Assembly: GCF_964355755.1 (NCBI RefSeq) | Contig: NC_092677.1 | Location: 10,686,601 to 10,750,600 of the forward strand | Direction of reading: 5' to 3' | Length of the DNA: 64,000 nt | Source of the DNA: Antedon mediterranea | Lineage: Eukaryota > Echinodermata > Crinoidea > Comatulida > Antedonidae | In this document: piece by piece, positions 1 to 63,345 of the stretch | How positions within the stretch are numbered: position 1 is the stretch's first letter | Layout of the letters: every line of letters starts with the position of its first letter | Notes under the pieces: model-generated | Database searches by the model: none | What the model saw: only the letters and a program-made list of their open reading frames with translations | Told to the model about the DNA's origin: nothing | Translations under genes and position numbers: made by a program

Positions 1-101
1 TGGAACGCAGCAATTTAGGGTGGGAAAATCATAAGTCATTTTATAGACATTTACAAATCATTCAAGTTTTGTTTTGTTTGTTTCTTTTATTCTTGATACA
101 G

Positions 102-5619: not shown

Positions 5620-5787
5620 GTTATCAAACTAGTGTATAACATTAACAATGGCCTATGCTTTGGAGTATTATTAACAGTATAACGGTATTGGTTATTTATG
5701 AACACTGGTCAGATGTTTGCCATACTATGACGTAATTGTACATTTATGTACATATTGAGAACACTTCATAAAAAAGTAATTCTCGGG

Positions 5788-9811: not shown

Positions 9812-14151
<4,340 letters not shown>

Positions 14152-26627: not shown

Positions 26628-26679
26628 ATGTTTCACCTAAAAACATATGTTTTGAGTACAATTCTTTGTGCAACTATGG
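26628..26679 (+). other. Exon 1 of the mosaic gene: signal peptide
   Basis: ATG at 26628 opens 17 codons with a hydrophobic core (YVLSTILCATM) and a donor GTAAGT at 26680. In-frame stops and a non-coding AT-rich leader precede it, and the exon ends at phase 1 like nearly all others in this gene. Cleavage would fall near the exon junction. Confidence 0.8.
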
Positions 26680-29600
26680 GTAAGTTAGACATTTTTTTTT
26701 CTTTATATTTGTACACTTTTCAATAGCAGTCTTTTTAATTAGACATTTATAGAGAGGTTTCATTTTAATGACATGCCACACGACTAAAGAAGATATGGAG
26801 CCTAACAGTAATTTTCTGAGCTTTTGTAGAATAACCTTTTGACTTGATATATTAGTAGTCTTATGACGCACTATGAAAAAACGAAATGATGCAATTAAGG
26901 TGGGAATTTACGGATGTTTATGCTTGTGTAGAATGACTTTTCGACTTGATAGATAAGTAGAAGTGTGACGTGTCCTGAAAACTAAATGGTGCTATTAAGC
27001 TGGGAGTTTGCTTTTCGATTAATCCATCATTTCCCAGTGGGAACCAAACTTTACAGCATGAGTATTATACTGTTTTCAAATAACAAAAACCCTTGCATTC
27101 AGTATGTAGACTTGACACAAAAATCACCCTGTTTTATTTTTGTTTACAGTGACAGCACCGTGGACTGTAACGGACTATACTGATGACATTACTTTTCATT
27201 TCGAAGACAAGGACAAAACTTACAATCAGTTTGTCACAAATGGTCACTGTGACGGCCGCGCCACCCGTGGTGGCGTCAGTGTACCCATCTACATTGAATC
27301 TCCAGAAATAAATACTTTTTTAGCTGCTAATCTGCTAAATAACGATCCAATACTTTTGGGTATTCGTAAAATAAATGGAGCATGGACTTGGGCAGCAACT
27401 GGACAAGAGGCGGTGTTTACAGGTGAAAAGGAAAAAATTATAAACAAAAATAAAAAAGAACAAGAAATTAATTAATTAAAGATATATTGTTCTCCTGAAA
27501 AAATAATGTTTGTTGTTGAATATACCTATTCAAAGTCTTTTTAAAAAATTAATCTTTATTGTTCATGTTTTATAGGGCAATACATCATATATAAATAATA
27601 GCATTTTCCGAAAATTTGCCCTTTCTCTCTGGCTGCCGTGTTTGATTAATCTTATTGACTGATTTATTTGTGTTTTATTGAGATCTGCCACTGTTTTACA
27701 CTGTAAACACTTAGGCCATACCATCCATGGTATTCCTTTATATGATTGCCACTAGTTGGCATTTAGATTTTTTTTTCAAGTTCAAGTTGTATACAGTACA
27801 TATGAAATGCAAATATGCCAAAATGTTTATCTCTTTATCATTATTAAGTAGAATTGCAGTCTAGAACCTATGCTATGTTAACACTATTTTAATATCCATT
27901 TAGCCTGGAAAGAGGATGAGCCGTCTTCCGGTCTTGATTGTGCCTACATGAATCAAGAACAAGAATGGATTGCTTTATCCTGTAACTCAAAGAGTTATGT
28001 ATGTTGTAGAGAAGGTGAGTATACTTCATATTATAGTAATTCAATTCAAAATTTTAGTTTAAGGTATAAAATTAATACTACGGTTTTAATTGATAAGCGA
28101 TCTATTGCAGTTACTGCAGTAACTACATTTTCTTACTGCAATAATGCCTGCTTTTAGTTTGTTTCAAAGTTTACTGCAAACAGTATGAAACCTGAAAAAG
28201 CGTGCTAAATAATGGCATAAACAAATTTGAGAGTAAAACAAAATATAGTAACTGCAGTATAATAATTGTCAATAATAATACATGAAAAATGAAAGGAAAG
28301 GAAAAAAAAACTTGTTTAACATGTTTAGTTGGGCACACTTTTATATCCATTATTGATGACGTTATAAAGAAAACTGGGGAATTGAGTCCCTGTGCAATGA
28401 TCATGTATAAAATATCATATACAGTATATTGTATATACAAAGCATTGTTTGATATGAATATCCTCAAATGTCCAGTATACTAGGCAACCAGAACAGCCAA
28501 TGCATACTCAACAATATCAATAATTATTGCTTTAAAAAAACTGAAGAAGCTTTATTCATCTTAGAAAAAAATATGCACAAACAAATATAATGTTTTTTTA
28601 AACTGACCTAAGAAAAAAAAGATGATGTTTTTTAATTAAATAAGTTTATCAAATTTAGCTAAAATGACACTGTAAGGCTTTAAAATAAGTATTATAAATT
28701 ATAGTTTGTTGATTTTTATATTGAATTTAGACCATCCAACTCCTACTACAGCTGCTCCAACTACAACCGCTCCCACAACAACTGCTCCTACGACAACAGT
28801 ACCTACTACAACGGCTCCCACGACAACTGTACCTACTACAACGGCTCCCACGACAACTGTTCCTACTACAACAGCTATGCTTGAAACAGAAGGTAAGTTA
28901 ATATAGTCAGCTACGAAAACCAGTTTGAATTTAGCCTGTTTTCCATTTTGCAAATTGCATTGTGGCAATCCAATGTTTTCAAAGACAGAAAAATCACACT
29001 ACCATTTATTATTTTCCACTAGAAGAGCGAAAACTGTAACTGTGATTTTCATTTTTATTTCCTGTTTGCTAAACTGTTCTATGTACATGAGTTCTCAAGA
29101 TGGTGAGGTAACTTATTTCCTGGGTTCTGATTGGTTGCGCATTTGTTTTTTCGCTTTGCAAAAAGTAAATCCATTCAACACTACTAATTACGCTGAAGCA
29201 AAAAAAACTTGAATTTTGCAGCAGTGGAAATGACTTAGATGATGAAATATGAATTATTACGCATAAGCTGATGCTTTCAACTCGTCATATAAATTCATGG
29301 AAAAAATCATATACGCTTTTCGCTTTTTGATAACCATATGTTGGTATTTGAAAAAACTTGAAAAAGTAGACCATTTGCACGAACAAGGCTACCTATGCAG
29401 CACAACAAAATAAAGGCCAATTTACACAGACGGGCAGTAACGGTAAGCGGAAAACTTATTCTACATATAATCTGTATCTATCCTGAGCGGAAACCGCCCG
29501 CATTGTGTGTAAATGGCCATATGGAATAACATAGATTCTATATTTTTATTACCATTACTGCTCGTCTGTGTAAATTGGCCTTTAGGCTACTTTTTCGAGA

Positions 29601-32600
29601 ACATTTATTGATTAATTTTAAGAGTTTTAAATTTAACTTAAAATCATACTGTTTTTCCTATTGTTATCATTGGTTACCATACCCATTATTTTATGTAATT
29701 AGAATTTTTATATTGTATTTGGAATAATTTTAAATACTTTTAATTGCATATTTGTAACTATACAAATGGTAAGTATAAACTGTAAAGAAGGATCCAGGAT
29801 ATTTCAAATCGGGATGCGCTAACATAATATTAATAATCTGTCAAAAAAAAAAGTAGTAAAAAAGTAGTTAATAATGTCATTTTATATTAGTTTTGAAAAG
29901 AACTGTTGAGTTCTGAAAAGAACTGAGGAGTGAGAATCAAAGCATATTGATCAAAACGTCGAGAAACGCAACAGTTCTTTTCAGAACTAATATAATGTGG
30001 TGTACCGCAAACTTTATATCAACATTTGATTTCGCCATGCAAACCTTCAAATATAATGTCATTTTAGCTGTCAAAAAGAAGGTGATGGCAACTCAAGCCC
30101 TACCCCCTGAAGAGACTCCTGTGTGTTATTTAATTGGTCACCAAACATCTTAAGACCAAGCTACAACCCCAATTACTTGTTTTATTGAATTTTATCATGA
30201 TTTTTTTATATATTCTGTTTCAGCACCAGATGTATTATTACGTAAGTATACAGTCTTTTAAGGATCTAATATCCCCAAAAAGAATGCAGGCCCATTACTT
30301 ATGTGTTATTTCTATGTGACTGTTCTTACAATGTTAACACAGGGAAAACCTTTGAATAATAATAGCTACTTTTTGAATAAACGAAAAAACTATAAAAAAA
30401 TATTAAAATAAACTAGACATGAAACTCGTCACTTTGACGAGTTAGTTATCCGCACAGCGACAAACGCCACGTGCACGTCATACGTTGGAATATTGCACAC
30501 AGATAAAGATTATGGCATTATGACAAGAACTGAAGAATATGATATGCTGTTAGTGCTGAATTCTGTCAATTTTGTGTCATATAGTATATACATACATGCA
30601 AACAGTATAATCTGTATACATATTACATACAGTGTAGAATAGGTGAAATTACGGGACCCGCCATTTATTCCAATTTTTAACATGGCGACGGTATCAAAAT
30701 GAAACACTTAATTAACAATTTCAGAAGGAAATTATCTCAGGAACAACATATTAACGTGTAGAAGAAATTTGAATACGTAAAATATAGATGCGCACCCTTT
30801 TAAATGTGATGAACTATTACGCAAAATATGAAAATACGACTTTTTTTATTCAACTGGCAATATGATGACGTCACAACATCCGATTGGCAAAATGTTTACA
30901 TGAATTCGTATCTACAATCCTATAGCTTCCAGAAAACGTTTTAATCGTGATTATCACATTTTATTCTTACGAGCTATTACAGATTAAAATTTACTGTAAA
31001 TATGAAATTAATGACCCACGTAATTAAAATTTTTAGGCATGATGACGTTATAAAAATTAAAATATTTTTATCTCATGCTAAAGAAAGTTGATTGACCTAG
31101 ACAATATATAAATATAGCAGAAAAAGGAATACAGATAAGCGTGATGCGCTCCATTGAATGTGATGAGCAATAACGAAACAGACAAAAATCCTATATTTTA
31201 CATTCGTGTGGCCATACGATTACGTCAAAATGTTTTTTTAGCCTTATCGATGCATGATCTGATATCTGCAACTCATCAACTTCTAGATTTTGTAATAAAA
31301 ATAAACGGTTCACGGTTTACTTTAGAAACTATGACTGTTTAAAAAAAGACATTATTTTGATGATTTTTTAAGCTTTTTCATAAAAAACGCGCACAAATTG
31401 TCTAATTCAACGTGTTCGTATGGCGTTATTTAAACTGGAAAAGGTCTAAATTGTTTTCAAAATTACTAGGAAAGGCTTGAAAAATATAATTCAAGAGAAA
31501 AAAATACGTTTTTATCGCTACGTGCGCACCGCGTGCGTAAAAAAATGCGCGCCCGTGGGAATTTTTGACATGCTCAAAACGCGTAAAAAGAAATTGAGTA
31601 GAAATTAATTTTGCGCATTTTGAAATTTTAAATGCGCGTGCGCGCGTAACTTCTTGTGAAACATGCCATTTTTAATCCGTAGAAAGTTTGCCCCTGATAT
31701 GACTTAAATTTTGTCAAAGTGTCAATACTAAATGACTTTTGGTTTTTAATCTATGATCAATCATTGAAATTCATAAAATTGCGCGTAAGTCACGTTGCGC
31801 AACTATGACGTCATTCAAAAATAGGAGGTGCACAACTTCACGTAAATGCCCATATGTTGTCAAAGTTATGAAATGTTATGTTTACACATTTTAGAGAAAC
31901 GCGACTCACAAAAAAGGAAGGAAGGAAAGAAGAATAATACAGAAAAAAAATGTTGATCTCATACAATAACAAGGTGTTATCCGCTTGGTATACCAAGCGG
32001 ATAACTAATAAAATCAAACTTTGACTATGCCATGAACATGTGACATTAAAATGGTAACATATGTAAAAACAATTGAAAATATTAATTTCGTCGTCATTAT
32101 TGTAATTATTATTGCTATCACTAATCTAATATATTTTTTATTTCACTGTGCATTATCTCATATAATTCATATTGAAAAACTTGATGTTCATTGGGACAAA
32201 TAAATAACGATAACGATTGGTGCAGGAGTATGGCAGTCACATCCTACCACTTCTAGGTATAATAGATTAGCATATCACAAAGTGGATGACTATTATCATC
32301 TAGGATACACATAAACAGTCTCATTACACATGTGTGGTGAACAGACTCAACACTTTGCAGACTAGAGCCAGTTAAATTACCTACTTTCCTTGTTATACAA
32401 TCGATCCTCACCAACTCTTTCAACGCGTTACTACCCCACGCTGTAATACAATGCGCCCATATACCACAAATAACGGATTGGTAGAACATAGTATGGATTT
32501 CATGTCTGACATGAAAGTCGTTCATTTTACGAATGCAATTCAAACGAGTGTTAAGTTTTTTCATTACACTATCTATATGATCTCCCCACTTAAGTTGATC

Positions 32601-35600
32601 ATCGAAAACGACCCCTAAATATTTATATGTGGTTACCCTTTCAACACGAGTATTATTAATTACGACCACTTCAGTCTCAATTTTATGTTTACGAAAATCA
32701 ATTACAAGTTCTTTAGTTTTGGTAATATTAAGTTTAAGGTAGTTATCATCACAATACTAATAACAAGTCCTATAATAACTGTCATTATCGTACCTTATTA
32801 GCCCAAGCAATGCAGTATCATCAGCAAACTTAACTACTAAACAGTCAACATGACTGTATCGAAAGTCGGATGTATATAATGTAAAAAGGAAAGGTGCCAA
32901 TACCGTGCCTTAAGATGCACCCGTATTGGTCACAATTCTATACTATAAAAGTTTTTATATGGCGCCCTCCAAAGAAGAGAGCGCCTAGGAAATATATTCC
33001 CTCGAACAAAATATCATTCCCTTTGGGATGTCAAATCTTATATTTAACCTCTAAGCAGTCAATATCTGTATAATATTCAACTTTTAAATTTATTTTTTAG
33101 TTATTGTTATATCTTTATCTTTTTTTGTAAAAGGTATTTCCATAATTGTGTAATGTAATAAGATTTTCTCTTTACTAGATTGTCAGTCATTCAATATAAT
33201 TTATTTATTTTGTCAAGAACTCTGGCTCACGTTCTAATATAAACACCATAAAAATAAACAATTTCATAATAAAATATGATAAAATGGGTAAAATAAAGAC
33301 AGTACGACTTGACAGTGTCTTGAAACTAGACTTGATTAAATTGCATTTCTTTATTTGTTTAAATCTAGCAACAAGAATTACATAATAAAATAAAAAACAA
33401 TTTCTGTTAGATAAAAAAGAAAAGATAAATTACAATTTTTCATTTTTGTAATTTGATTTCTGATTTTCACCCTTTATTTATAACAATACTTATATATCCT
33501 ATAGGTTTTAGAAAATAATGCTTTTGAAGAAGAATCTAACAAATTACGTAAATATTCTTGCCTATATAAAATGAATTCCCTGTGCAAAAGAAATTGCATT
33601 CTGGAAATCCAGAAAAGTTAACTATTCTGTTTTCTTATCTTGTGTAGAACCTCCGCAGGACCTTACTGCTTTTTTGCGGAACAACTGGGTTAGTTTATAC
33701 CACGCTCAACAGGATACTAGTGCTCCAATACCACATATATCAGTGTCGTACTTAGTTGAACCCCACAATTATGTGGAATTGGAGGATACTGATTGGAGTG
33801 ATACTTTATTTGCTGGGTCTACGACACTCAAAATACGGAGTCAAGAGTTGTGCAGGTTAATCATGAGACTACCAACATCTGGTGCAGCAGAGCTTCGTCC
33901 AGGTCCTTTTTTGACTCGGTATATACCAATAGATTATGATGCAAGGCCAATAAATATTACAGGTTTTATTCAGGAACTTGGAGGTAATTTCTCGGCAAAT
34001 TATTTGTCAAACACCATTTTATACTTGCTTATATAAACTAACCAATTGGTTGGTTAATACTTAGAAAATTCCATAGTGTAATGGTAGACGCTATTTGAAT
34101 TGAATATAGAGTATTTGAAACATGCCTTTTGGTACTGCCTAGACTATGAAATATTAACAAATACACAAAACCACACATGCTAGTTCTCTAATGCCCATTT
34201 TTATAAATCAATTTACAAATTAATTAAAAAAGTATTGACATTTTAGTTTTGAACCCATACAGTACTGAAACCAATACACATTTGCAGAAATTCCAACTAG
34301 TTTAAGTTTGTAACTTAATTTAATTACATACTGTATGTTCATTTTGTTTTGATTGAAGCATATATTCTACCATTGAATCCATTTGTTGTTACATCGACTG
34401 GTGGGTATGCCCAGCTTCAAACAAATGCGAATGAAAATCAACAACTTCGGTGGAGTTTTAATGGAGTAAACATCCCCACAGCCAATGGGTTTGAAGTTTT
34501 AAAGATTTCAAATGCTACCGTTGAAGATGATGGTATCTATGAATGTTATATAGATGGAAGACGGGATGAAAACATGCATGCATTTTTCCAGCTTAGTGTG
34601 AGAGGTAGTAAAGGCAATATCATACTTATGTTCATTTAGTAACTGTCTTTGAAGCTTGTAGATAGGTCAGGTAACAATATTTAACATATATATATATTTA
34701 ACAATAATTTTGATTTTTCATACATTTATTGTTACAAATTTGATTTTCATATTGTACATAGTCTTTTCTTGTAATCTTAATTTTATTTTTTCTTGTATTG
34801 TTTGTTTGTCTGGAGTTAGAGAGACTGATAGTTGTCTTTGACAGCTCTTGTCTTTCCTCAGTGCTCCTTTTTTAGGTGTCACTGAAAGGAATATAAAAAT
34901 AAATACATAAATTACAGAGGTTTCAAAATGGACCAGGAAACCGGTGTAACCCTTCCCATACCGAAAGATTCAATGAGTTTTTTTTAGGTGGACACAACCC
35001 AGAAGTGAAGACTTGTTCTACCACCAGAGTTATGGCCGAGAGTGGCTTGCAACCTTTGCCGATATTATGGCCACTCGAGTCTCTATTAAGCAAGATGAAA
35101 TACAACTGTTATGCATTATTTTAAAAACAACTAATTTGTTCGTACAGAATGCCCTGCAGGGATGTGTGGTCTACCTAATTGTCGGTACACATGTCCAATC
35201 TGTAAATATGGTGGAGTGTGTGAACCTGCTTCTTGTACATGTATCTGCCCTTCTGGATACATTGGTGATCTCTGTGAAACACGTATGTATCATACCATTT
35301 TTTGTAATACAATAAACCATATTCAGGGGACACTTTTGCATGAAACAAACGAGAGGCAATACATATTTCAACCCTTAGGCAACCTTTATTCAGAGGAAAC
35401 CCTCATCAAGGGAACTCTTTCGCATGGAAATAATTAGGGCATTACACAGGAAACTTCTATCCAGGGGACACTTTTTTGTGTCCTGAAAAGGTTCTATCTG
35501 TATATATAAAAGGTCAATAATAAAAACATAAAGTAATATAATTCAATTGTAATTATTCAAACATTCTTTGCAGTAACTAGATGTATTATTTTCCAGCATA

Positions 35601-53600: not shown

Positions 53601-56600
53601 GGTTTTTATGGGGAATATTGCACCCTAACATGTCCATGTGGAGCTAATAAGGCTTGTGACAGAGTAACCAGCGAGTGTTATATAGGTAAGATACAGACAG
53701 GAGAATTTATAGTTGTCATATCATTTGTTACTGTGGTGGATGTTGACGGCTTTTGGTGGAATTGTAACTACAATGTCTTTTTTAAATTTAGTAACTACAA
53801 CAGAAGAACCAACTACAACAGCAGAACCAACTACCACAGCAGAACCAACTACAACATCAGAACCGATAGTGACAACTATGGACATAATAACTCTTGAAGT
53901 GACAACTCCAGAACTGACAACTCCAGGTACTACATCAATTTAATTACCTGTATTGAAAATATGTGAATTCTTATATTTCCACTGTCATGAGATTCCTATT
54001 TTCCAGAATTTATTGACCTATCATATTTAAGTGAGATATTATCCTCAGTGTATAAATAGATCTCAAGTTTTCACAGTTTCTCTTCTGCATTGTGTCATAG
54101 AATTTACTTAGCAACCTATAGTCCTATCCATACTAGTCACACTTGTTGAGTAAAATGTTTTCCATAAATACTAAGTATTTCACTTAAGTCAAAATTGTAT
54201 TATATTGCTCTCAAAATACATAAAACTAACCATGAACGATATTATAAATGAATTTAAGGGTTTTTAAATTAGCTTAAGTGTGAATGAAAAATATGGCCAC
54301 TGTGTTTAATCATGATTCAATGACATGACTATCATCATTTAAAAAAAAATGTTGACAATTGTATGTGTTGTATTAAATAAAATATAAAGAATAAACATTA
54401 TTTTATATTCTGATACTAAACATATTTATACAAACTATTGACAGAGTTGATGGAAACTGTACTGTATACAGATCAACCTGAGATTGTTATTACGGAGGTA
54501 GAAGTGGTTATGACCGAAGCCGCAACAACCACCATACCAACAACTACCGAAATGGTGTTTACAACGGAAGCAGCCACAACGATTATTACAGAAGGTACAT
54601 ATGCGCCAATTCATTTTACAATGTTTAGGCCTAAAATCCTGGAACCACAGCTGTTTTTAGAACAATAAATTATATTATACAGTTTTATTGATGTTCAATG
54701 AATATTTTTCCATTTTAAATTGTTTAATTGTTTAGAACCATCCTACCCGCATGAGTTTGCATGTACGTTTAATGTGAATGATTCGTTGGTAGTTCCAACC
54801 ACTGCTCAGCCTACGACGTTTGCTGTTCCAATGAATATTTACACATCACTTTTACAAGTGTCGGATCCTGAATCTAACAATACTACGACTGAACCCACCA
54901 CAACGATACAGCCAACAACAACTCCAGACTATGGCACAACACCAGTCTATGACCCTTTTGATGAGATTGACGCTGGTTGTATGGTCGATGGTGAATACAC
55001 GCCATTTTTTAATAACCTTGATGAATTTGTAATGCCGTTCGGTATACATAGTAAAGCAGTTGAGGTTCCGCACCGTGGAAAGAATGACACAGTGGTGTTG
55101 TCAATGCCATTTCCAATTCCTTGTGCGGTGTCTCCGTTGGAGTGTGATAGTGGTTTGACCGTGTCTTTCTGGGTAAGACTAACACTCGATGAACTACTGA
55201 AACCGGGAGATAAATATTTCATATCAACTGGTAAGTTTGTTGCATTCATTATCATATCAAAATGGCATTTTTTGCAATTTTACAATAAACAATGTTTATG
55301 ATTGGGTATTAGTTCTTTAGTTAAAGGAAATGACAATTATTCTACTGCAGTAACTACATTTGTTTACTGCAATAACGTATGATATTAGTTTGTTTCTATT
55401 GAAAGGTTTATGAAGCAGTGACTGCAATAAAAGGTTGTATGATTACCTACAAAAGCTTGCCAAATATTGCATAAATAGGTCATAGAGTAAACAGTAACTG
55501 CAGTAAAATAATAATGTTGACAAGGTCACTTTAGGGGATAAATGAAGTATGTACATCATTCCTTTGCACAATTTTTTGGCATTTTGTTCAATTGTTTATT
55601 TAGGTCCGCCAGATCAAGCAGGTTTTGCTGTGTATCACAATTCTGCTACACTGTATGTAGTTGTGAAGGATGGGAACCGTATGTGGAAAGTCATTTTGTC
55701 TGGTGGTTTTATTGTTGGTGATATCTGGACACAGATTGCCTTTACATGGGATAGAGTTGGTAGTTCGGGATTAGAGGTATGCTTTATGCTTCTGTACAAT
55801 CAAAACTGTGCCGCCATTTTGAAAGCAGTACATTGCTATTGAATGTGTACATACAGTAGTAAGAATAAATAGATCAATAATAGCAGATATTATTTATATA
55901 AGCAGAAACTGTAAGTTGATGTATTGTACATTTCATATAAGTAGCAACTTCTGTTGTAGAGGCAGAAATAGTATGTTGTACAACATTAGCAGCAGTAATA
56001 GAAACCTTATATGAAGCTGCAGATATGTAGCAACTACAGTCAATTCAAATACCGGACTCTCGCAAAACCAGAAGTTCAACTGCAGCAAAATATTTTTTTT
56101 TTAAATATAGGTGTTTGTTGATGGCAACAAGAAAAACCAAGAATCAGAGTCAACGCCTGATGTTGTCGCAACAAGCCATGGTTATGTGACTATCGGAGCA
56201 CGACTAGGGTCAGATGTCGAAACGGTAATGGATTCGACAGAGACATTATTTGACGAGCTCTACATTGCAGATCACTATCTTCCAGAATGGGGAAACAGGT
56301 CCACAATATTAGCAAGAGGTGTTGGTAAGTATGTTTTTTCCACAAGAGTACTACAGCAACCTTATTACCTATAAGTTAGATGCTTCAAATATATTTTCTG
56401 CCATCAATGGATCTGTTTTTTATTTATTAATTATTATATTTTATTGCTGTTACTTATTAAATTTTTGTTTATATCTCCAGATCAAGATGATTGTAAGAGT
56501 AATGAATGTGTAAACAGTCACTGTCTAGATGCTGGTATCGATTCTTATATTTGTGACTGCTTTCCTGGCTTCAATGGAACATTTTGTGAAAATGGTAATT

Positions 56601-59600
56601 GTTCTTATGCATTCTATATCAAGTTATCTAAAAGTCTACAGCTCGGTTTAGACTAATAAACTGGTTTGACAAAAAAATTGTGATGCCTAAATATGGTAGT
56701 GATATGATGTCATCGTGTCCATATATGGGCACATCACATTTTTTGTCACATAAAATTTGATAGTGTAGTTTCACTAAATTTGTTTAAAAAGAAGTTGAAC
56801 TATTTGTGTTGTAGTATATATGAACTCTATCAATAAAATGATACAAAGTGTCATATCCCCTAAATAGAGATTAGGTATTATTAAATTAAAAATTAAATAT
56901 AATACAAACATAATTTTCTCCCTAAATTTATCCTAAGGAAGGGACTATTTTATACTTGCTCATGTACATATTTTATTGACATGTTGCATTTTTCCCAGGT
57001 TAGTCAATAAAAACTGAGCACTATAAACCAGGATTTCAAAAAAACATTGGCAGACTAGGTTTATTTCTTTATATTGATTTCATAAGACAATATTATTGTC
57101 CATATATTTTGATAATTTGTTATGTTGTATTTTTAAGATATTAATGAGTGCCATAGTAACCCATGTATTAATGGCAAATGCATCGATAAAGTCAGCCAAT
57201 TTATCTGTGAATGCGAATTTGGTTTTGAAGGAATTGTTTGCGAAATAGGTATGTACTATTTTTTAAACATCATATTGGTTAATCAAAATAATAATTGTCT
57301 TTTGTACAGCACCTAACCAAAATAAATTTTCTATAAAGCGCTACGACCACAAGGCTCGAACTAGGTAGAAATGATATCATTTCATATGCTATGCGAAAGA
57401 GATGGGTTTTCAGCAACTGTTTAAAGATATCAATAGAGTTGGAATTCTTGATTAATTGTGGCAAGGATATAGATGAATGACAAAGATTTCTGCAAGTGTT
57501 TTGGAAGGAGACGAGCAAGTAATAGATATGAAACAGTTGAGTGTAGTGCCTCTTGTGAAAGTACACAATAACACAAGTCACAGTATTTACAAATATTTTA
57601 CTTTTTTTTAGATACTATTCCAGATTTTGTATTTGATAGTTCTTCAACTGCTGATATTGCTCCTGAAGATTTGCGTAAGTTTTTAAAAAGATTTGATTTG
57701 CCGGTCTACACATCTACAGTGTATTTTGCTTGTCTCTATAGTTCATTTAAAAACTCTATTATACCCCTTTCACACCAAAACTCCGGAGTGTCTCCGGAGA
57801 CACCCCGGGGTTTATGACCATTCAAAACGTCGAGAAACTCCGGAGATACCCCTTTCACACCAACCTAGCAACTCCGGGGTTTATAAAATAAAATTGTAAA
57901 TGTCGCCCTCTATTTTGTTTGTTTACATAGCGACGATCATTAGAATCATTTTAATTAATAATATGTTTAATTTAATAATTACTTTCAAAAGTCTCAGAAG
58001 TAATATAATGTTTTATTGATACTACTTATTATTTTTTAACCCGCTATATATGTTGTACAAATATTTAAAGTATTTTGAAATAAAACTAAAGCAATGAGTG
58101 ATCGTGTGAGGATGACCTTTTGACCCGAAACACTCCGGAGTTTGATGTTGGTACCTTTCACACCAAAACACCGGGGTGTTTCCGCAGTTCGCTCTCCGGA
58201 GAATGTTCAGCTGTTCAACCCCGCAGTTTTAAACTCCGGAGTTGCTTGATTTTACCTTTCACACCAAACAGCGGGACGTCAACTCCGGGGTGTCTCCGGA
58301 GTTTTGCTTTTGGTGTGAAAGGGGTATTAGACACAATTTCAGAGATATTTTAGCTCTGTCTTAATAGACATACTGTAAGGCCTCACAAAAGTCTGTTACA
58401 ATATTATTAAAGTCTGTTACAATATTATTAAAGTCTGTTACAATATTATTAAAGTCTGTTACAATATTATTAAAGTCTGTTACAATATTATTAAAGTCTG
58501 TTACAATATTATTAAAGTCTGTTACAATATTATTAAAGTCTGTTACAATATTACAATATCACAGTCTTAGTTGCAGAAACCACCAACCAACCAGGTAGTT
58601 ATGAATATTGAGGGGGTTGTTTTGATTAAAAATCAATACAAGCTACCTTAGCCACTATATTTTAATTTGGTTTTTTTGCATACCTTTTTTTTATAGTTAA
58701 TAACACAGATGTTCTTTACGAACCACTTTATGGATTGGCACAGAAGTACACGCCGTTCTCCAACACGGATGCCGGCTTCCCAGATGGCGGTCTATACACA
58801 ACTATAACAATTGGACGTGGTGACCTTGGAAGCAGTTATGTTGCTCTCCTTTATCCTGGTTCATTGGTGAACGCTTTATTTAGTGAAGAATTATCGCAGG
58901 TGAATGGTGAATGCCTTAGCCAACCAAATAGGTGTGCTGATGGATTTTCCAGTTCATTATGGGTTAAGTTTGAAGCCAACAGTCCCACTAAACCAGGAAT
59001 TATTATGCATGCTGGTGTACAGCCTGGTCAAGGTCCCTTTGCTCTTTTCGAGTTCACAGCAGACTCTCAACTTCAACTCACTGGTTTGTATTTGTACTTT
59101 TATTAATAGTATGTTTTTCTTTGTAGTTTATACAGCTTACAATTCTCTGGTTTATAGTTTTATTTTGACATAATTGCTCAATAAAGATTAGTAACACAGA
59201 GAAAGACATTGATACTTAAATGATATAACAGAGATACATACTCTGATGAACAATGATTTAACAGAGTTGATTAAAAAGCCTGAGCATTGAATACAAGAAT
59301 TTAAAAACAAGTATTTTTGTTTACATTGTGCAGACCTGAATCTCCTTCCAAATCCTAATCATTGACAAGTATTATAGAGTAGATGACCCAACATTACTTC
59401 ACGTCTATAATCCTATTTATAAATATTGTATGACCAAGTATAGTCCTGGGGTCTGGGTAAAATATCTGGCGAAAATTAGGGGGTTATGCTTCGTTACCAA
59501 TGGAATTGAGTCTGACCACAGTACTGGGTTTATCTTAAGTTAAGGAGTGGGATAATACGTGCAAGATGTAATTATAATCAGAGATAATAACATTATTTTA

Positions 59601-62600
59601 CATTAACAGTGAACTACAGTACTGTAGAATACAGAGGAAAGACTGTAGATTATGTGTTCATTCCTAATGTATGGCTGAACCTTGCTGTAACATGGCGACG
59701 AGATGTAGGTGTATCTATGTACATAAATGGATATTCACTCAAATTACTAAAAACATTTATTGATACTTCTGCTGATGGACAAGGATGGTTAACAGTAAGA
59801 AGCTCTAATTCTTTTTAATGAATCAAATGGAGTGGCTTGGTAGTTTAGATGCCTGCCACCTGTCCAATGTCATTTTGAACAAAATCCACTGTTAAAGATT
59901 TGCAATTGTTAAATTAGAATATCTAAAGGCCAACTCATACAGCATCGTATGACGAAGTTCGATGAACCGTCTCATCAGTAGAAAAATAAACATGTTTAAA
60001 GTTTTCCCAAAACCTAAAAACTATCTCAAGACGACTCGTCGTACAATGCTGTCTAAGTTGGTCTTTATCATCTATGTAAACAGGATTGTCACCTTTCAGA
60101 AGGAAAGTGAATAAAACCAATTATCGTTATCCTTGCCAATATGTCTAAATTGAAAATAAATAAAAAATGCTGTTCATATTCTTTATTCTGTATTAATCAT
60201 TCATATGAATTAATAATGTTTGATTTTTAGGTGGATGCACCTGGAGATACAAGCAACTTTGTCACTCTTGGAACTCGATTTGAAAGTTTTATGACAACTG
60301 TCCCTTATCATGTTGGCGACTTTGTCATTTTTCATCGATACATCTACGAATTTGAAGCTCATCTATTTCTTGGTGTCACAGGTAAATACTGTAGTTACAG
60401 AGCTTTCGATTTGTGAAGTTCATAGATCATGTGAAGGCATTGTGTGTATCCCACGAAGATTGGATGTGCTTGCTCACTAAAAATCCAGATGATGACCAAC
60501 GAATTCAGGATTTTTTAAACAAGGGAACGTTGATTTTTCATTGCAGCTGTCAAGCAGTAAAAAATGGGCAATATTGTATTGGTAAATTTTTTTGTATGTG
60601 CGTGGCCCCATGGAAGAACAACCATGTGTTAATATGGGCCTCCATCGTTAAATAAAGTTGAATTTAACATTAATAAGTAGGTTGTTACAGATTAAAAGCT
60701 TTTTTTTGTTCTTAACCGGAGCTAAATTTATTTAGTTGAAAACTGAGGACCATCATATTTAAATGTTAATACTATACACCTTTTAGCTGAAGAGTTTGTG
60801 TTTTTCAACAATGCAACATACTATTGGACAACCGATGCGTATATACGAAGGTTCACTCCCACAATCACGGCATATACACCCAGTGTGTCTCGTACAACTG
60901 ACTATGTCAAGGTTGGTAGTGCTGATCTAATTGTTGTTGATGGTTCTGACTACAAGGGAAGTGCCATCCTGATTGATGGTATTGAAGACCAGTGGATTAC
61001 ATCTGGTGAGCAATAAAAAGATTTATTTCTGTCTTTCACGTTATAAATAAGTTTATATTTACATTGTCCCAATTTTTAACTGCAATATGTTAACCTTTAG
61101 CTATTTTTAAAAATATTTTTATACCTGAATAAAATTTAAAAAAAGATAAACATTTCCCTATCATGGTGATTATTGGTGGTTTGAAAACCAACCGTAGCAT
61201 TTGACGTCTATAATCAAATATGAACACTGCCTTTATTAATGGCCTAGCATAACATTTTTAGTTGGCCTAGCTCCACATAGCCGTTGTTGGCCCAGCCCCA
61301 CATAGCCTTTTTTGAAAGCCTGACTATATCCCTATTTAACTTGAATAAAACAGTCAATCTTTCCACTCATGAATGGAGTATATAGTCTCCTCATTCAACT
61401 CATAAAGATTCATTATTTGTATTTACATTTTTTTTATAGCTGAATTGAATGGAACTTGTTTTAGCAACCCATACCTATGTCAAGAAGGTGTGACCTATTT
61501 ATTTACTGGCAAGTTGACCCCTGTCAATGATGAGGAGTACCATTTTGTGTTTAGTACCGGTGAACAATCTACCAGGGGCGTGTCTCTATACCAACGAGGC
61601 GTCAAATTGGGGGCAGCATTGACAGATGGTGATAAACGATGGATCGTTGAGATAGACTTCCAGCCTGATCCAGGTTAGATTCTTTATTTATTTTGCCACA
61701 CATATAATTTATTTAAGGACATCATTAAGTTAAATTACGGGTCAATCCTTTCAATATTTCTGTCATTATAAAGTGTTTCTTTTTTTTTCAGAAAAATTTC
61801 TAAAGATTGCGATTTCATGGAATAAAACATACGGTATGTTGTTTTACATTGATGGATATGCGATAGCAGCAGATTATGTGGGCTACCGAAAGATACGGGA
61901 GAATGATCTTGATTATCGCCTGTCAATTGGACGTCGCAATGACTTTTTGAGCATGTATTCCAAGCTTATCTTTCAAGAGTTTGTATTTTGGGAGGAATTC
62001 GTTCCTATCTGGAGGTCATTAGAGTTTTTTGGTTTTGTGGGTAAGTTTAATTTGTTGTAACATCTTTCTAAACCCTACCTATAGAGTTATTTTAGTACTA
62101 GAAAGTCAACTCGGTGATATTAGAGTGAAGTAGGACATGGCTGCCCTATCTCTTTAAAAATATAATGAAAACTAAACTTACTGTAGACTAGTAACACCAT
62201 GGTGTTTTTTTAGTGTCATTTTTAAGATTTATATTGTATATTCTTTTAGATTCAAGCTACTATAACAAGCCATTATTATTCTGGGACGCAAAACATTTGA
62301 TTAGCGCTAGTATTAACACACTTGAAGCAAACATGCTACTTCGAGCAAATGGGATGATCCCTTCAGACTTATTTGTAGGCCCAAGTCCTGGAGTGAATCT
62401 AATAGCTGATAAAATAGTAGACCTTACAGCAGATGATGCTCACTTGTACCTGGGTAAGTTGTCAAATGAGACGATCGCTTCAGACTTAATTGTAGGCCTA
62501 AGTCCTGAATTAAATCTAATAACAGATAAAATAGTAGACCTTACAGCAGACGGCTCTCACTTGTACCTGGCTAAGTTGTCAAATGAGATGATCCCTTCAG

Positions 62601-63345
62601 ACTTATTTGTAGACCTAAGTCCTGGAGTGGATTGCTATACAACAGTCTTAACTAAGCAGATAAAATAGTAGAGCAGACAACGCTCACTTGTACCTGGATT
62701 GTTGTCAAAAATAATGATTTGATTTTTTGCGATGTTTACAATAATAAAAACAACATACTTATTTGATCACTCAGGTTATATGGAATATAGTTGCTTGTTC
62801 ACAACTAGCTGGTGTCCAGAAGGAATCAGTTTGGCGATGTGGATCAATATAGAATACCAAAGTTTTACTTCGCCAGTCATTGTTTTCAGGTAAAATAAAA
62901 ATTACTTATAAAAATAAAAAATGAAATGATTTTCTTTGAATTTAACTTGAGCCTCTTTAGTTGCTTCTACCTTTACAAGCCTGTCCAACACCTTTTAAAG
63001 TTGAGTCTTAACATTTGTCCTCTATTATGGGCTTTTCCGAGAATCATGGGGTTTGTTTATGCTCCAGCATCCTCTCTTTACTTCTGTATGTGAAAGCATA
63101 CTTATATAAATTTCAAGATGTTACCACCTCCCATGTCAGTGCCTGATTTTACTGGGATTTTTTCTGTTCTGAACATTTAAAACAAATATACGTAGTATAG
63201 TTGCACTTATGAATTCCATTATCTTGTTAGCTCTGGAGATGGAACTGGTGCTAATGGCATTGCAGTGTACTTCACAAACAATAAGTTGGTGTTTGTTGTC
63301 AACTCTCAAGGTGTTTCCCTGTCGGTTCAAACACCTGTATCTGAA
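26628..63345 (+). CDS. Giant mosaic extracellular protein: CTLD, four Tie-like Ig-EGF cassettes, LamG-like domains (3' open)
   Basis: I traced 50 exons from the ATG at 26628 (MFHLKTYVLSTILCATM, a signal peptide). Every border is AG/GT, and phases give 2914 codons without a stop; the gene continues past the right edge. Order: signal peptide, C-type lectin-like domain, Thr-rich linker, then four cassettes, each a leading domain, Ig and four or five EGF-like modules. Thr-rich linkers, LamG-like 1, two EGFs and LamG-like 2 to 4 follow. The Ig-EGF-EGF-EGF core matches Tie receptors: AYFRVVVRGC and FCYPDPLGCICASGW compare with AFFRLIVRGC and FCLPDPYGCSCATGW in vertebrate Tie proteins. No transmembrane segment or kinase lies in the window, so it may be secreted, an adhesion receptor, or a kinase with a distant 3' end. 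No complete counterpart is known to me. Confidence 0.85.
27150..28014 (+). other. C-type lectin-like domain (exons 27150-27422 and 27904-28014)
   Basis: Toward the C-terminal side the exons encode ESPEINTFLAANLL, AWTWAATGQEAVFT, WKEDEPSSGLDCAYMNQE and SYVCCRE. These are the hallmarks of a CTLD: the WxxxEP loop, DCA, a tryptophan and the paired cysteines. The Glu-Pro motif resembles the EPN/EPS sugar-binding loop, but the WND motif is not intact, so calcium-dependent sugar binding is uncertain. The intron splits the domain after VFT. Confidence 0.8.
28100..28275. mobile_element. MITE with TTACTGCAGTAAC ends (copy 1)
   Basis: GCAGTTACTGCAGTAACTAC at the left, a middle with TTTACTGCAA, and TAGTAACTGCAGTATAATAA at the right are inverted relative to each other. 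The same order occurs at 55325-55515. Both copies sit in introns of the mosaic gene. Confidence 0.65.
28731..28892 (+). other. Thr/Pro-rich linker 1 (exon 4 of the mosaic gene)
   Basis: The exon encodes tandem PTTTAPTTTVPTTT units ending AMLETE, a mucin-like stalk likely to be O-glycosylated. Its DNA is a 24 bp or shorter imperfect tandem repeat, and the minus strand is falsely open across it. The same linker type recurs at 41330-41431 and 53792-53926, once per duplicated block. Confidence 0.85.
29424..29587. mobile_element. Compact MITE, CCAATTTACACAGACG ends
   Basis: AAAGGCCAATTTACACAGAC at 29424 is mirrored exactly by GTCTGTGTAAATTGGCCTTT ending at 29583. The interior has a smaller inverted pair (GTGTGTAAATGGCCATATGG). 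Decayed relatives are at 6890-7140 and about 8355-8390. Confidence 0.8.
29885..30060. repeat. Dispersed element with TTGATCAAAACGTCGAGAAA (copy 1)
   Basis: TTGATCAAAACGTCGAGAAA, CAACAGTTCTTTTCAGAACT, TGTACCGCAAACTTTATATC and CATGCAAACCTTCAAATATA occur here. All four recur, partly rearranged, at 42110-42245. Both copies precede the short APDxLL exon by a similar organisation, so this may be duplicated intron rather than independent insertion. Confidence 0.55.
30224..30241 (+). other. 18-base microexon APDVLL (exon 5)
   Basis: Between TATTCTGTTTCAG and GTAAGT lie 18 bases encoding Ala-Pro-Asp-Val-Leu-Leu in phase 1-1. A near copy, Ala-Pro-Asp-Ile-Leu-Leu, lies at 41758-41775 before the third cassette, with conserved flanking intron. 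Conservation of both splice sites in duplicates supports its being a real exon. Confidence 0.75.
30413..32008 (-). mobile_element. Helitron-like non-autonomous element (copy 1, 1.6 kb)
   Basis: Read on the minus strand it ends with a 9 bp hairpin (AACTCGTCA, loop AAG, TGACGAGTT), six bases, then CTAG followed by T, the classic Helitron 3' signature. The other end carries the palindrome 31977-32004 (TTATCCGC..GCGGATAA). The interior shares long colinear words with 49996-51188, such as GCGCGTGCGCGCGTAAC and CATGCCATTTTTAATCC. No Rep/helicase frame is present, and the canonical 5' TC is not evident. Confidence 0.6.
32225..32960 (-). pseudogene. 5'-truncated LINE reverse-transcriptase fragment
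   Basis: The minus-strand reading gives GTVLAPFLFTLYTSDFRYS, FADDTALLGLI (RT motif C, FADD), ITKTKELVIDFRKHK and the C-terminal YKYLGVVFDDQLKWGDHID. These are typical of CR1/Rex-type non-LTR elements. Frame breaks separate the segments, so it is inactive. It lies in the long intron before the first cassette. Confidence 0.8.
33648..36871 (+). other. Cassette 1: leading domain, Ig, EGF x4 (exons 6-11)
   Basis: Exons 33648-33983 (leading ~112 residue domain, EPHNYVELEDTDWSD, GPFLTRYIPI), 34359-34604 (Ig; LRWSFNGVNI, DDGIYECYIDG, AFFQLSVR), 35148-35282 (EGF1; CPICKYGGVC, CPSGYIGDLCE), 35597-35740 (EGF2; CRPPPFGCSCAGGF), 36306-36431 (EGF3; KYGPDCRFDCDC) and 36755-36871 (a fourth module, FYGTQCEFQCEC). 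The leading domain sits where Tie receptors have their first Ig domain, but I see no clear Ig cysteines in it. EGF2 lacks the first two cysteines expected from Tie EGF2 and from cassette 2. Confidence 0.8.
36110..36255 (+). repeat. Imperfect tandem repeat GTTGTTACTGCAGTTGTTGA, intronic
   Basis: About three to four units of 36-48 bases keep an open frame of VVTAVVDTTAV type in the intron before EGF3. It has no acceptor/donor pair. The duplicated block has the same array at 44912-45057. It may be a decayed Thr-linker exon or simply a minisatellite. Confidence 0.6.
37005..37205 (+). repeat. SINE-like element in block A (duplicate at 45805-46005)
   Basis: GTCGTACAGATAGACCCGGG plus TTCAATGCCCGAC forms a tRNA T-arm/B-box-like region. 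It is followed by GTAAAATGAGTACCTGG, GGAAAGGAACTGGCCACCCT and GAGCTCCTAACAGCTCATTC. The same sequence with few changes sits in block B, so the insertion predates the duplication. Confidence 0.55.
37535..41207 (+). other. Cassette 2: leading domain, Ig, EGF x5 (exons 12-18)
   Basis: Exons 37535-37885 (leading domain; IVLVVDPPWTDMSSD, VGPFTGTATLDGF), 38708-38953 (Ig; LRWKFNGEDLDF, ESGVYECFLNGDY, AYFRVVVR), 39144-39278 (EGF1; CPVCYNGGVC, CPGGFHGSQCD), 39486-39638 (EGF2; FCYPDPLGCICASGW), 40080-40211 (EGF3; YYGPNCDLECHC), 40443-40556 (FGELCELQCECDFQQAC) and 41097-41207 (FYGEYCTLTCPCGANKAC). EGF2 keeps all cysteines of the Tie pattern. The last two modules are laminin/MEGF-style with no Tie counterpart. 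The leading domain resembles that of cassette 1 only weakly. Confidence 0.8.
40780..40888. mobile_element. MITE family 1 copy, degenerate
   Basis: AAAACTCTGTCTACCCTCTC and AGTTTGATAGTCTTGATAGA ends flank GTGATGTGCTCATATATCAC. It lies in block A only; the matching intron of block B (53206-53574) has a different content, so it inserted after the duplication or was lost from B. Confidence 0.7.
41330..41431 (+). other. Thr-rich linker 2 (exon 19)
   Basis: It encodes VTTTEEP followed by PTTTAE units and ends APTTTE. The DNA is an 18 bp imperfect repeat. Together with the microexon 41758-41775 (APDILL) it ends block A and leads into cassette 3, mirroring exons 4 and 5 before cassette 1. Confidence 0.85.
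41758..41775 (+). other. 18-base microexon APDILL (exon 20)
   Basis: Flanked by TTCTTTTACAG and GTAAGT, in phase 1-1, it parallels the microexon at 30224-30241. The downstream intron begins with the same GTAAGTATACAGTCTTTT. Confidence 0.75.
41895..42060 (+). repeat. tRNA-like SINE fragment
   Basis: GAGCGGCATAGCACCGTGAG followed by TCCAAGATTCAAATCCTATC suggests a tRNA-derived head (B-box-like GATTCAAATCC). A body with TGTTCCAATTTCGATTGG follows. Identification is tentative. Confidence 0.4.
42110..42245. repeat. Dispersed element with TTGATCAAAACGTCGAGAAA (copy 2)
   Basis: This is the counterpart of 29885-30060, with AGGTTTGCATGGCAAAATCA, TGATCAAAACGTCGAGAAAC and GTACTGCAAACTTTATCTCA. It lies just upstream of cassette 3. 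Confidence 0.55.
42447..45668 (+). other. Cassette 3: duplicate of cassette 1 (exons 21-26)
   Basis: Exons 42447-42782, 43159-43404, 43950-44084, 44399-44542, 45108-45233 and 45552-45668 match cassette 1 in length exactly. Only a few residues differ (for example Asn to Lys and Lys to Thr in the leading domain, Ala to Arg and Ser-Ile to Thr-Leu in EGF2). Introns are likewise nearly identical. EGF2 has the same missing cysteines, so that loss predates the duplication. Confidence 0.85.
44912..45057 (+). repeat. Imperfect tandem repeat, block B copy of 36110-36255
   Basis: The same GTTGTTACTGCAGTTGTTGA array with almost no change lies in the intron before EGF3 of cassette 3. Confidence 0.6.
45805..46005 (+). 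repeat. SINE-like element in block B (duplicate of 37005-37205)
   Basis: It carries the same tRNA-like head and body as 37005-37205, with isolated base changes, at the equivalent intron position. Confidence 0.55.
48796..49757 (+). mobile_element. LINE 2 nested in LINE 1 (3' end only)
   Basis: It is flanked by the direct repeat AAGTA (48791-48795 and 49758-49762), which restores LINE 1 when removed. The coding part starts in the thumb region (WFIANKLTLNVNKSKYVIF) and continues KFLGLFLDETLSFNF, TYAITVWGATS and HILQKKALRNI to a stop at 49558. A 3' UTR ends ATAAAAATGTCGATG plus A-rich sequence. It is a different family from LINE 1, as the homologous segments differ strongly. Confidence 0.85.
49996..51188 (-). 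mobile_element. Helitron-like non-autonomous element (copy 2) nested in LINE 1
   Basis: Removing 49996-51188 rejoins the LINE 1 frame (NYPSNL, then NKIHVLQKK) with no target duplication, as expected for insertion between A and T. The minus-strand 3' end has hairpin AACTCGTCC..GACGAGTT followed by CAAAT and CTAG. The other end has TTATCCGC..GCGGATAA. Interior words match the copy at 30413-32008 in order. No coding capacity is seen. Confidence 0.65.
53792..54594 (+). other. Thr-rich linkers 3 and 4 (exons 53792-53926 and 54445-54594)
   Basis: The first encodes PTTTAE units then IVTTMDIITLEVTTPEL. The second has EIVITEVEVVMTEAATTTIP and ends in ITE. They are phase 1-1 stalk exons. The first is the block B counterpart of exon 19 but lost the APTTTE end and gained a new tail. 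No microexon follows here, so the cassette series ends. Confidence 0.8.
54736..56324 (+). other. Thr-rich stretch and LamG-like domain 1 (exons 36-38)
   Basis: Exon 54736-55230 begins with a Ser/Thr-rich segment (TTTEPTTTIQPTTTPDYGTT), then CMVDGEYTPFFNNLDEF and CDSGLTVSFWVRLTL. Exon 55604-55776 continues QAGFAVYHNSATLYVVVKDG and WTQIAFTWDRVG. Exon 56111-56324 has VFVDGNKKN, VTIGARLGSD and LFDELYIADHYL. The SFWV, W-IAFTWD, VDG and FDELYIAD string is the LamG/pentraxin-like jelly-roll pattern. Confidence 0.8.
55325..55515. mobile_element. MITE with TTACTGCAGTAAC ends (copy 2)
   Basis: TCTACTGCAGTAACTACATT at the left and AACAGTAACTGCAGTAAAAT at the right are inverted. The interior TTGCCAAATATTGCATAAAT resembles the 28100-28275 copy. 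It lies in the intron inside LamG-like domain 1. Confidence 0.65.
56481..57248 (+). other. Two EGF domains (exons 56481-56594 and 57138-57248)
   Basis: The first is DQDDCKSNECVNSHC with CDCFPGFNGTFCE. The second opens DINECHSNPCINGKC and closes CECEFGFEGIVCE. Both start with the D-x-(N/D)-(E/D)-C signature of calcium-binding EGF. They differ from the Tie-like EGFs of the cassettes and separate LamG-like domains 1 and 2. Confidence 0.9.
56639..56768. mobile_element. MITE family 1 copy
   Basis: AACTGGTTTGACAAAAAAAT, CTAAATATGGTAGTGATATG and GGGCACATCACATTTTTTGT lead to the right end ATTTGATAGTGTAG. The left terminus is altered (CTCGGTTTAGACTAATAAAC). It lies in the intron between the two EGF exons. 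Confidence 0.75.
57279..57500 (-). pseudogene. LINE C-terminal relic
   Basis: The minus-strand frame includes SISLPQLIKNSNSIDIFKQL and LKTHLFRIAYE, the typical end of CR1/L2-type polyproteins (LP..IR..S...FK..LKT.LF), followed by an AGCGCT-containing 3' tail. It is intronic. Confidence 0.65.
57612..57674 (+). other. Short linker exon 41
   Basis: This 63-base phase 1-1 exon encodes TIPDFVFDSSSTADIAPEDL, with consensus borders (TTTTTTTTAG and CGTAAGT). It is an acidic spacer between the second calcium-binding EGF and LamG-like domain 2. Confidence 0.75.
57762..58326. mobile_element. Harbinger-type MITE with TTA target duplication
   Basis: TACCCCTTTCACACCAAAAC at the left mirrors TTTTGGTGTGAAAGGGGTA at the right, and TTA flanks both ends (57759-57761, 58327-58329). 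A TWA target duplication is the rule for PIF/Harbinger elements. The interior repeats CTCCGGAG and CCTTTCACACCAA words several times on both strands. No transposase is present. Confidence 0.8.
58388..58555. repeat. 21 bp minisatellite, eight units
   Basis: AAAGTCTGTTACAATATTATT is repeated eight times without visible change, then decays. Unit homogeneity implies recent expansion or contraction. It is intronic, between exon 41 and LamG-like domain 2. Confidence 0.95.
58697..60381 (+). other. LamG-like domain 2 (exons 42-44)
   Basis: Exon 58697-59083 encodes VNGECLSQPNRCADGFSSSL and WVKFEANSP. Exon 59610-59794 has VWLNLAVTWRRDVGVSMYIN. Exon 60231-60381 has FVTLGTRFESF and VGDFVIFHRYIYEFEA. The C-x3-P-x2-C-x-x-G-F-S-S-S-L-W-V start is shared with domains 1, 3 and 4 and marks a homologous repeat series. 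Confidence 0.8.
59925..60068. mobile_element. MITE with CAGCATCGTA ends (copy 2)
   Basis: AAAGGCCAACTCATACAGCA at the left and ATGCTGTCTAAGTTGGTCTTT at the right are inverted. ACATGTTTAAAGTTTTCCCA and ATCTCAAGACGACTCGTCGT link it to 10228-10458. It is intronic in LamG-like domain 2. Confidence 0.7.
60787..62040 (+). other. LamG-like domain 3 (exons 45-47)
   Basis: Exon 60787-61005 (YIRRFTPTITAYTPSVSRTT, DYKGSAILIDGIEDQWI) leads into exon 61440-61673 (CFSNPYLCQEGVTYLFTGKL, FVFSTGEQSTRGVSLYQRG). Exon 61792-62040 ends it (LKIAISWNKTYGMLFYIDGY, RLSIGRRNDF). The order matches domains 1 and 2, including CxxxPxxCxxG and IAISW..IDG. Confidence 0.8.
62250..63345 (+). other. LamG-like domain 4, incomplete at window edge (exons 48-50)
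   Basis: Exon 62250-62453 (KPLLFWDAKHLISASIN, VNLIADKIVDLTADDAHLYL), exon 62775-62889 (CLFTTSWCPEGISLAMWIN) and exon 63231-63345 (GDGTGANGIAVYFTNNKLVF) follow the series pattern C-x-W-C-x-x-G-I-S-L-A-M-W-I. The last traced exon ends at phase 0 with a GTAAGT donor, and its partner lies beyond 64000. Confidence 0.75.
62345..62700 (+). repeat. ~119 bp tandem triplication overlapping the 3' end of exon 48
   Basis: The last ~100 bases of exon 48 plus its donor (CACTTGTACCTGGGTAAGTT) are repeated at about 62470-62585 and 62589-62700. In copy two the donor reads CTGGCTAAGTT (GT to CT) and in copy three CTGGATTGTTG, so only the first donor can work. The reading frame stays open through copy two and into copy three. 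Confidence 0.85.

Follow-up and report, generated by a model that had tools for sequence, protein, structure and literature searches.

The window, i.e., the whole stretch of 64,000 nucleotides that was analyzed (C8:10686601-10750600 of a genome of 354 Mb in 18 contigs), contains the greater part of what is probably a single giant mosaic gene on the forward strand. On one strand, the sequence encodes, in order, a C-type lectin domain (CTLD), a mucin-like stretch, four cassettes composed of D1, Ig and EGF1-4 or EGF1-5, a second mucin-like stretch, a LamG domain, two EGF domains, further LamG domains and, beyond the right end of the window, GAIN, GPS and seven-transmembrane (7TM) domains. The features are given below, where positions above 64000 continue the window coordinates to the right and "paralogue" refers to a second adhesion G-protein-coupled receptor (GPCR) gene located downstream.

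47-5700, +, ankyrin repeats with a SAM-like end (by eye)
11200-12290, -, EF-hand protein (by eye)
20700-24370, +, coiled-coil-like protein (by eye)
26628-84129 (C8:10713228-10770729), +, whole gene model, 74 exons, 4,048 residues
26628-26679, +, exon 1, putative signal peptide MFHLKTYVLSTILCATM (splice models; weak)
27150-28035, +, C-type lectin domain, exons 2-3 (27150-27422, 27904-28035; Pfam Lectin_C, 36 bits, E 1.3e-8)
28752-28892, +, mucin-like Thr/Pro exon 4 (sequence, splice model)
33648-53926, +, four cassettes (detailed below)
54472-54594, +, mucin-like exon 33, belonging to the junction of the cassette and LamG parts (splice model)
54736-56324, +, mucin and LamG1, exons 34-36 (Laminin_G_3, 44.8 bits; exons 34 and 35 have paralogue counterparts)
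56481-57248, +, two EGF domains, exons 37-38 (EGF, 43.7 bits; both with a paralogue counterpart)
58388-58553, 7.9 copies of a 21-bp unit (100% identity), intron preceding LamG2
58697-60381, +, LamG2, exons 40-42 (37.6 bits; 3/3 exons matched in the paralogue)
60787-62040, +, LamG3-like, exons 43-45 (without a Pfam match; colinear paralogue exons, 33-48% identity)
62379-63345, +, LamG4, first part, exons 46-48 (51.3 bits; the rest at 64122-64374, beyond the window)
64777-68609, +, LamG5-6 (splice models)
70074-75332, +, GAIN/GPS, with the GPS exon at 75206-75332 (Pfam)
76018-83570, +, 7TM, with the stop at 83575 or 84129 (Pfam 7tm_2)

The gene model was obtained by dynamic programming over splice sites, using splice-site weights and a reward for domain-like peptides. 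Because the reward and the seed peptides were picked by eye, the result is a curated chain rather than an unbiased gene call; a more stringent run, in which the reward was smaller, yielded a chain of 35 exons that is mostly a subset of the full model. A first-pass annotation of the same DNA had described a single splice-consistent frame from 26628 to 63345, and this frame was rebuilt with an identical ATG (26628) and exon end (63345). Its exact counts, 50 exons and 2914 codons up to 63345, were not reproduced, the rebuilt model having 48 exons and 2,860 codons, and the frame does not stop there but runs beyond the window into the LamG exons and the GAIN, GPS and 7TM domains. The C-type lectin-like domain named in that annotation, a domain of sugar-binding type, is recovered by Pfam, and its LamG-like domains are borne out in large part, i.e., four of the six LamG segments pass the Laminin_G_3 cut-off, one falls below it (17.7 bits) and one gives no match.

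Exons 39, 46, 53, 61-62, 71 and 73 were judged by hand to be uncertain, as are the last exons, where the stop lies at 83575 in the first model and at 84129 in the second. An exon at 30458-30548 in the first full model is gone from the second after changes of the seeds, which included the seed of the next exon; its loss is partly a matter of choice. Exon 1 is weak because ATGs followed by a signal-peptide-like sequence and a phase-1 GT occur 1.6 times per kb on the + strand. The putative signal peptide lies below the hydropathy threshold.

The adhesion GPCR end of the gene

A search for a kinase to the right of the window found a 7TM domain in its place. The Pfam matches are clear for GAIN (47.3 bits, E 2.2e-12, profile positions 6-208 of 210), for GPS (47.6 bits, E 2.4e-12, directly before TM1) and for 7tm_2 (99.9 bits, E 1.8e-28, profile positions 4-245). 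When the C-terminal 624 residues were compared with the PDB, the best match was ADGRL3 (1.4e-40), ADGRD1 was found at 4.9e-35, and the best 60 of the 79 matches were all adhesion or secretin-class receptors. A hydropathy analysis of the 4,048-residue model gave seven regions above threshold between residues 3756 and 4001, one of them listed as two overlapping peaks; all seven follow the GPS, and no region of the ectodomain exceeds the threshold. When exon 68 is spliced to exon 69, the sequence GWGIP is regenerated, a TM4 motif of the adhesion GPCR class. The GPS sequence is CHCYHFTAFAVVM, with ICHCYHF|TAFAVVM around the cleavage position, at which His-Phe-Thr is found (by eye). Among the matches listed, there is no kinase match at C8:10.68-10.81 Mb and no PTP match at the locus of the window gene, whose 7TM C-terminus also speaks against a receptor tyrosine phosphatase. 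As judged from the GAIN, GPS and 7tm_2 matches, the predicted gene product is an adhesion GPCR and not a Tie kinase.

A second adhesion GPCR gene is seen about 4 kb downstream, at about 88000-119000 (C8:10774600-10805600), with Asp-rich repeat DNA between its TM2- and TM3-like exons. Its domain order is EGF, CTLD, mucin, LamG, EGF, EGF, LamGs, GPS and TM. The GPS of this paralogue is clear (47.5 bits), its CTLD gives 25 bits over half of the profile, and the piece spanning TM1-3 gives no Pfam match. The model has 41 exons in the range 34-74. For 22 of them (21 when low-complexity sequence is masked) a counterpart was found in the paralogue; the best matches are colinear with these exons, the one exception being a single best match for both EGF exons, 37 and 38. 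None of the 29 mucin and cassette exons 5-33 was matched. A reversed control gave no matches with masking and 228 without, all in the Thr-rich exons 4, 18, 32, 33 and 34.

Phase 1-1 exons make up 48 of the 74 in the model and nearly all of those in the ectodomain, and because they are so frequent, agreement of the frame is weak proof, i.e., a chain across two adjacent genes would also be in frame. Furthermore, nothing in the paralogue corresponds to the cassette region, so that the exon 33/34 join comes from the model itself. The locus could thus hold two adjacent genes, one at 26.6-53.9 kb for a secreted or truncated lectin composed of the CTLD and the Tie-type cassettes, the other at about 53-84 kb for a mucin-LamG-adhesion GPCR. 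The cassette-free paralogue fits such an arrangement, as do FN3-D1-Ig-EGF-FN3-CTLD-CTLD units with a terminal stop at C8:15.755-15.80 Mb (by eye) and a signal-peptide-like ATG at 53267, before the LamG part. This ATG was considered as the start of a second gene and set aside, given the density of such sites noted above. No transmembrane segment lies between the two parts of the model and no clear new start is found, the join is bridged by mucin exons of the same phase, and the paralogue carries its CTLD and mucin stretch at the same place, upstream of its LamG1. In addition, the same chromosome carries a gene at C8:12.11 Mb in which a CTLD (46 bits) directly precedes a Tie-type cassette; the C-terminus of that gene was looked for but not found. 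On the basis of the shared CTLD and mucin before LamG1, the CTLD-cassette gene at C8:12.11 Mb and the absence of a membrane segment between the parts, a single gene is preferred and a pair of genes is considered unlikely. From the splice model we infer that all parts are transcribed as one unit.

The four cassettes and their resemblance to Tie2

The fourfold repeat of an Ig and three EGF exons, described earlier from the sequence, is present. Each cassette adds an unassigned exon, D1, before the Ig and an EGF4 after EGF3, and cassettes 2 and 4 also contain an EGF5 and a mucin exon.

33648-36871, +, cassette 1 (splice model; Tie2 1.4e-27): D1 33648-33983, Ig 34359-34604, EGF1 35148-35282, EGF2 35597-35740, EGF3 36306-36431, EGF4 36755-36871
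37535-41431, +, cassette 2 (splice model; Tie2 2.1e-28): D1 37535-37885, Ig 38708-38953, EGF1 39144-39278, EGF2 39456-39638, EGF3 40080-40211, EGF4 40443-40556, EGF5 41097-41207, mucin 41330-41431
42447-45668, +, cassette 3, tandem copy of cassette 1 (splice model, alignment): D1 42447-42782, Ig 43159-43404, EGF1 43950-44084, EGF2 44399-44542, EGF3 45108-45233, EGF4 45552-45668
46332-53926, +, cassette 4, tandem copy of cassette 2 (splice model, alignment): D1 46332-46682, Ig 47512-47757, EGF1 51980-52114, EGF2 52344-52496, EGF3 52638-52769, EGF4 53092-53205, EGF5 53575-53685, mucin 53792-53926
47791-51579, +, reverse-transcriptase-type (LINE-like) sequence in the Ig-EGF1 intron of cassette 4, outside the protein (ORFs, by eye)

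Cassettes 3-4 are a tandem copy of cassettes 1-2, where 33591-38992 and 42390-47797 are 98.5% identical over 5,414 aligned columns. Alleles of marine invertebrates can differ to this extent, and part of the fourfold repeat could therefore be an artefact of the assembly, i.e., two cassettes per allele with the second pair being a falsely tandem haplotype copy. Against this explanation, there is no gap (N) in the window and the 60 kb to its right (124 kb). Moreover, beyond the 98.5% stretch the exons are 96.5-98.7% alike and the introns 70-92%, and the Ig-EGF1 intron has 4,222 bases in cassette 4, which carries the LINE-like insertion, versus 190 in cassette 2; these differences point to an older duplication and make an artefact very unlikely. 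The older part of the copy (exons 13-17) has 10 synonymous and 3 nonsynonymous codon differences, and the recent part (exons 5-12) has 8 and 10, respectively, so that constraint is visible solely in the older part. The sequences are best explained by an old duplication followed by gene conversion.

The cassettes had also been described as derived from Tie. For EGF1-3 this assignment is supported by the PDB matches, by a pattern in EGF2 and by a tree, but the Ig part is generic and D1 has no detectable relative in the PDB. Cassette 2 matches only 3 of 177,635 PDB sequences at E<=0.01, all of them Tie2 chains (best 2.1e-28), in a single aligned stretch from the end of the Ig to EGF3. Cassette 1 gives seven matches, of which three are Tie2 sequences at about 100 bits (best 1.4e-27); SCARF1 (E 0.0025), CD3 epsilon and contactin follow at 19-20 bits. 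The match to Tie2 taken by itself is weakened by a control with a MEGF-type open reading frame (ORF) from this genome, whose 11 matches include Tie2 (71.5 bits, 7.2e-19), another EGF protein, 6u11 (71.5 bits), and SCARF1 (48 bits, 7.4e-12).

This control leaves room for a cassette unrelated to Tie, assembled independently from an Ig and MEGF/SREC-type EGF domains, and the N-terminal exons lend themselves to the same reading. When nine D1-Ig pairs were combined into a profile, it retrieved generic Ig proteins, with no Tie in the best 60 of 417 matches, such that the Ig was rejected as Tie-specific; D1 stands at the position of Ig1, but a PDB search with the D1 profile yielded no match (best E 0.3). 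The EGF domains, in contrast, favor Tie. The difference between Tie2 and SCARF1 is 100 versus 20 bits for cassette 1 and 71.5 versus 48 for the MEGF-type ORF, while cassette 2 finds Tie2 alone. The EGF2 pattern P-x-G-C-x-C, which marks an insert, is present in 11/11 cassette and Tie2 rows (9/11 for a narrower pattern) and in neither of two MEGF ORFs (22 and 36 repeats, as split by a chosen pattern). In a small EGF1-3 tree (19 rows, 139 columns), Tie2 and 10 cassette rows are separated from 8 MEGF rows by a branch with support 100/99, i.e., the cassettes are not placed with the MEGF-type proteins. This tree takes its MEGF rows from two loci of this genome, omits SREC sequences and cassette 3 (a near-copy), carries the program's long-branch warning, and has two inner branches alone that are strongly supported. 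On these grounds the cassettes were rejected as a MEGF/SREC-type run, and an independent assembly is regarded as improbable. The arrangement of an Ig followed by three Tie-type EGF domains is found in the cassettes, with EGF4 and EGF5 in addition. AlphaFold models from four-row alignments were too poor for use (pLDDT 35.6 for D1 and 36.1 for the Ig exon of cassette 2). Pfam gives no FN3 match in cassettes 1-2 or in the segments from LamG to TM; it also missed the FN3-like exon of a phosphatase gene on C1.

Cassettes elsewhere in the genome, proposed function and known systems

A cassette query of the genome gave at least 130 matches, for which the 119 best of 416 cassette candidates were scored. 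Three groups were set aside before counting, namely 14 matches in the window gene, 27 on C2 (from two MEGF ORFs and one further locus) and 12 that cover only the Ig; the remaining 77 EGF-type matches form 15 clusters among the matches listed. For the partner domains, the best 150 of 278 PTP, 133 of 774 kinase and 150 of 180 GPS candidates were scored, the kinase matches being entered mostly one per gene with neighbouring exons left out. Among the matches listed, 7 of the 15 clusters (50 matches) have a PTP-domain match no more than 50 kb away, and no cluster has a kinase-domain match that close; the share of the genome within 50 kb of a listed match is 1.1% for PTP and 2.9% for kinase. When the 15 clusters were compared by reading with the GPS matches listed, none of them had a GPS downstream on the same strand within 60 kb, i.e., the window gene is the only one among the matches listed in which a cassette is joined to a GPS. 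Three other candidate partners were rejected: a neighbouring receptor accounts for the GPS at C3:13.133, the one at C5:1.7536 lies on the opposite strand, and the one at C3:27.762 is too distant (95 kb). As separate observations, C3:13120001-13135000 contains a gene in which HYR-like repeats (by eye), nearly identical to one another, form a long series ahead of an EGF-like exon and a GPS, and C7:2285068-2320980 has at least 11 GPS matches in 36 kb, ten of them equal in score, which reflects either an array of nearly identical genes or a repeat in the assembly.

In a gene at C1:4878728-4888637, a D1-Ig-EGF1-4 cassette is followed on the same strand by FN3-like exons, a TM segment, a tail rich in Tyr and a PTP domain, two exons of which give 53 and 68 bits. 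Cassette and PTP-domain matches are also seen together at C5:7.65-8.08, C5:12.02-12.14, C5:25.20-25.33, C6:26.29-26.39 and C6:30.41-30.51 Mb. A gene at C5:7.89 Mb has a TM and a Tyr-containing tail, with no PTP before the next D1 (by eye). At C8:15755001-15805000, tandem units of the order FN3, D1, Ig, EGF1-4, FN3, FN3, CTLD, CTLD are seen (by eye). Three of these units end in nearly the same short tail and stop, and the units are therefore probably secreted. It seems that shuffling has placed the Tie-type module on several outputs. A tentative extension, which is less likely than not, is that the Tie-type Ig-EGF module does not belong to a kinase in this lineage but serves as a mobile recognition cassette, found on receptor tyrosine phosphatases, on probably secreted lectins and, in four copies, on the adhesion GPCR of the window, with perhaps no kinase-bearing Tie left.

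The reading that we prefer for the locus itself, with a probability of about 0.73, is a single giant adhesion GPCR gene of 74 exons and 4,048 residues, into which a Tie-type module was inserted and then duplicated, and whose product would be cleaved at the GPS and signal through G proteins. The exon phases make insertion and duplication of a Tie-type unit easy; symmetric phase-1 exons would have let the Ig-EGF module enter an existing CTLD/mucin-LamG-7TM receptor and multiply there. The domain content and the GPS sequence suggest a self-cleaving adhesion receptor with a long, multi-module N-terminal fragment. By analogy with its class, the GAIN domain would cleave itself within ICHCYHF|TAFAVVM, and the N-terminal fragment of about 3,700 residues would stay attached non-covalently. 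The lectin, Tie-type and LamG domains may bind partners on other cells, on the matrix or on microbes. Adhesion GPCRs follow a tethered-agonist rule, according to which a pull on the N-terminal fragment, or its displacement, would bare an agonist beginning with TAFAVVM, and the 7TM domain would then signal through G proteins. Binding of angiopoietin-like fibrinogen-domain proteins by the cassettes is a guess, as is a role in immune recognition.

Tie2 is a receptor of blood vessels, and the Tie-type module is the angiopoietin-binding end of this vascular kinase. If the assignment is correct, this end could also be carried by a G-protein receptor. Should the cassette indeed be mobile, one ligand-binding module would feed both phosphatase and G-protein outputs within a single animal, with the Tie kinase of vertebrates as only one of several outcomes. 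Related ectodomains on a phosphatase and a GPCR within one genome are a natural swap experiment, and the origin of Tie becomes testable, i.e., whether its ectodomain is older than its union with the kinase.

Adhesion GPCRs gain new N-terminal domains, and a Tie-type cassette on such a receptor was not found in the open-access literature searched. Adhesion GPCRs of the ADGRL/ADGRD type have the GAIN, GPS and 7tm_2 domains in the same order as the window gene, as well as a large mosaic N-terminus, but the window gene differs from them in its Tie-type cassettes and in an ectodomain of about 3,700 residues. According to the available portion of PMC2246102, LamG and EGF domains are known in the adhesion GPCR family, and adhesion GPCRs of amphioxus, an invertebrate deuterostome, carry C-type lectin, I-set Ig and other N-terminal domains, for which domain shuffling was suggested. 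The combination of C-type lectin and Ig is shared with the window gene; no Tie-type Ig-EGF cassette is named in that portion, and "tie" has 0 occurrences in the text. The adhesion GPCR set of Ciona is described as simpler in the accessible part of PMC2396169, that of PMC12716839 discusses domain shuffling for choanoflagellates and animals, and in that of a 2026 review (PMC13197933) "angiopoietin" and "C-type lectin" are both absent.

Tie2/TEK (PDB 2gy5, 4k0v) shares with the cassettes an Ig followed directly by EGF1-EGF2-EGF3 and the insert in EGF2. The window gene differs in having four cassettes rather than one, EGF4 and EGF5, no kinase, and a D1 without detectable similarity to Tie Ig1. Its closest parallel in the same genome is the Tie-like receptor tyrosine phosphatase at C1:4.878-4.889 Mb, which has the same D1-Ig-EGF1-4 order with one exon per domain, and in which FN3-like exons, a TM-like segment, a Tyr-rich tail and a PTP domain take the place of the LamG-GAIN-7TM part of the window gene.
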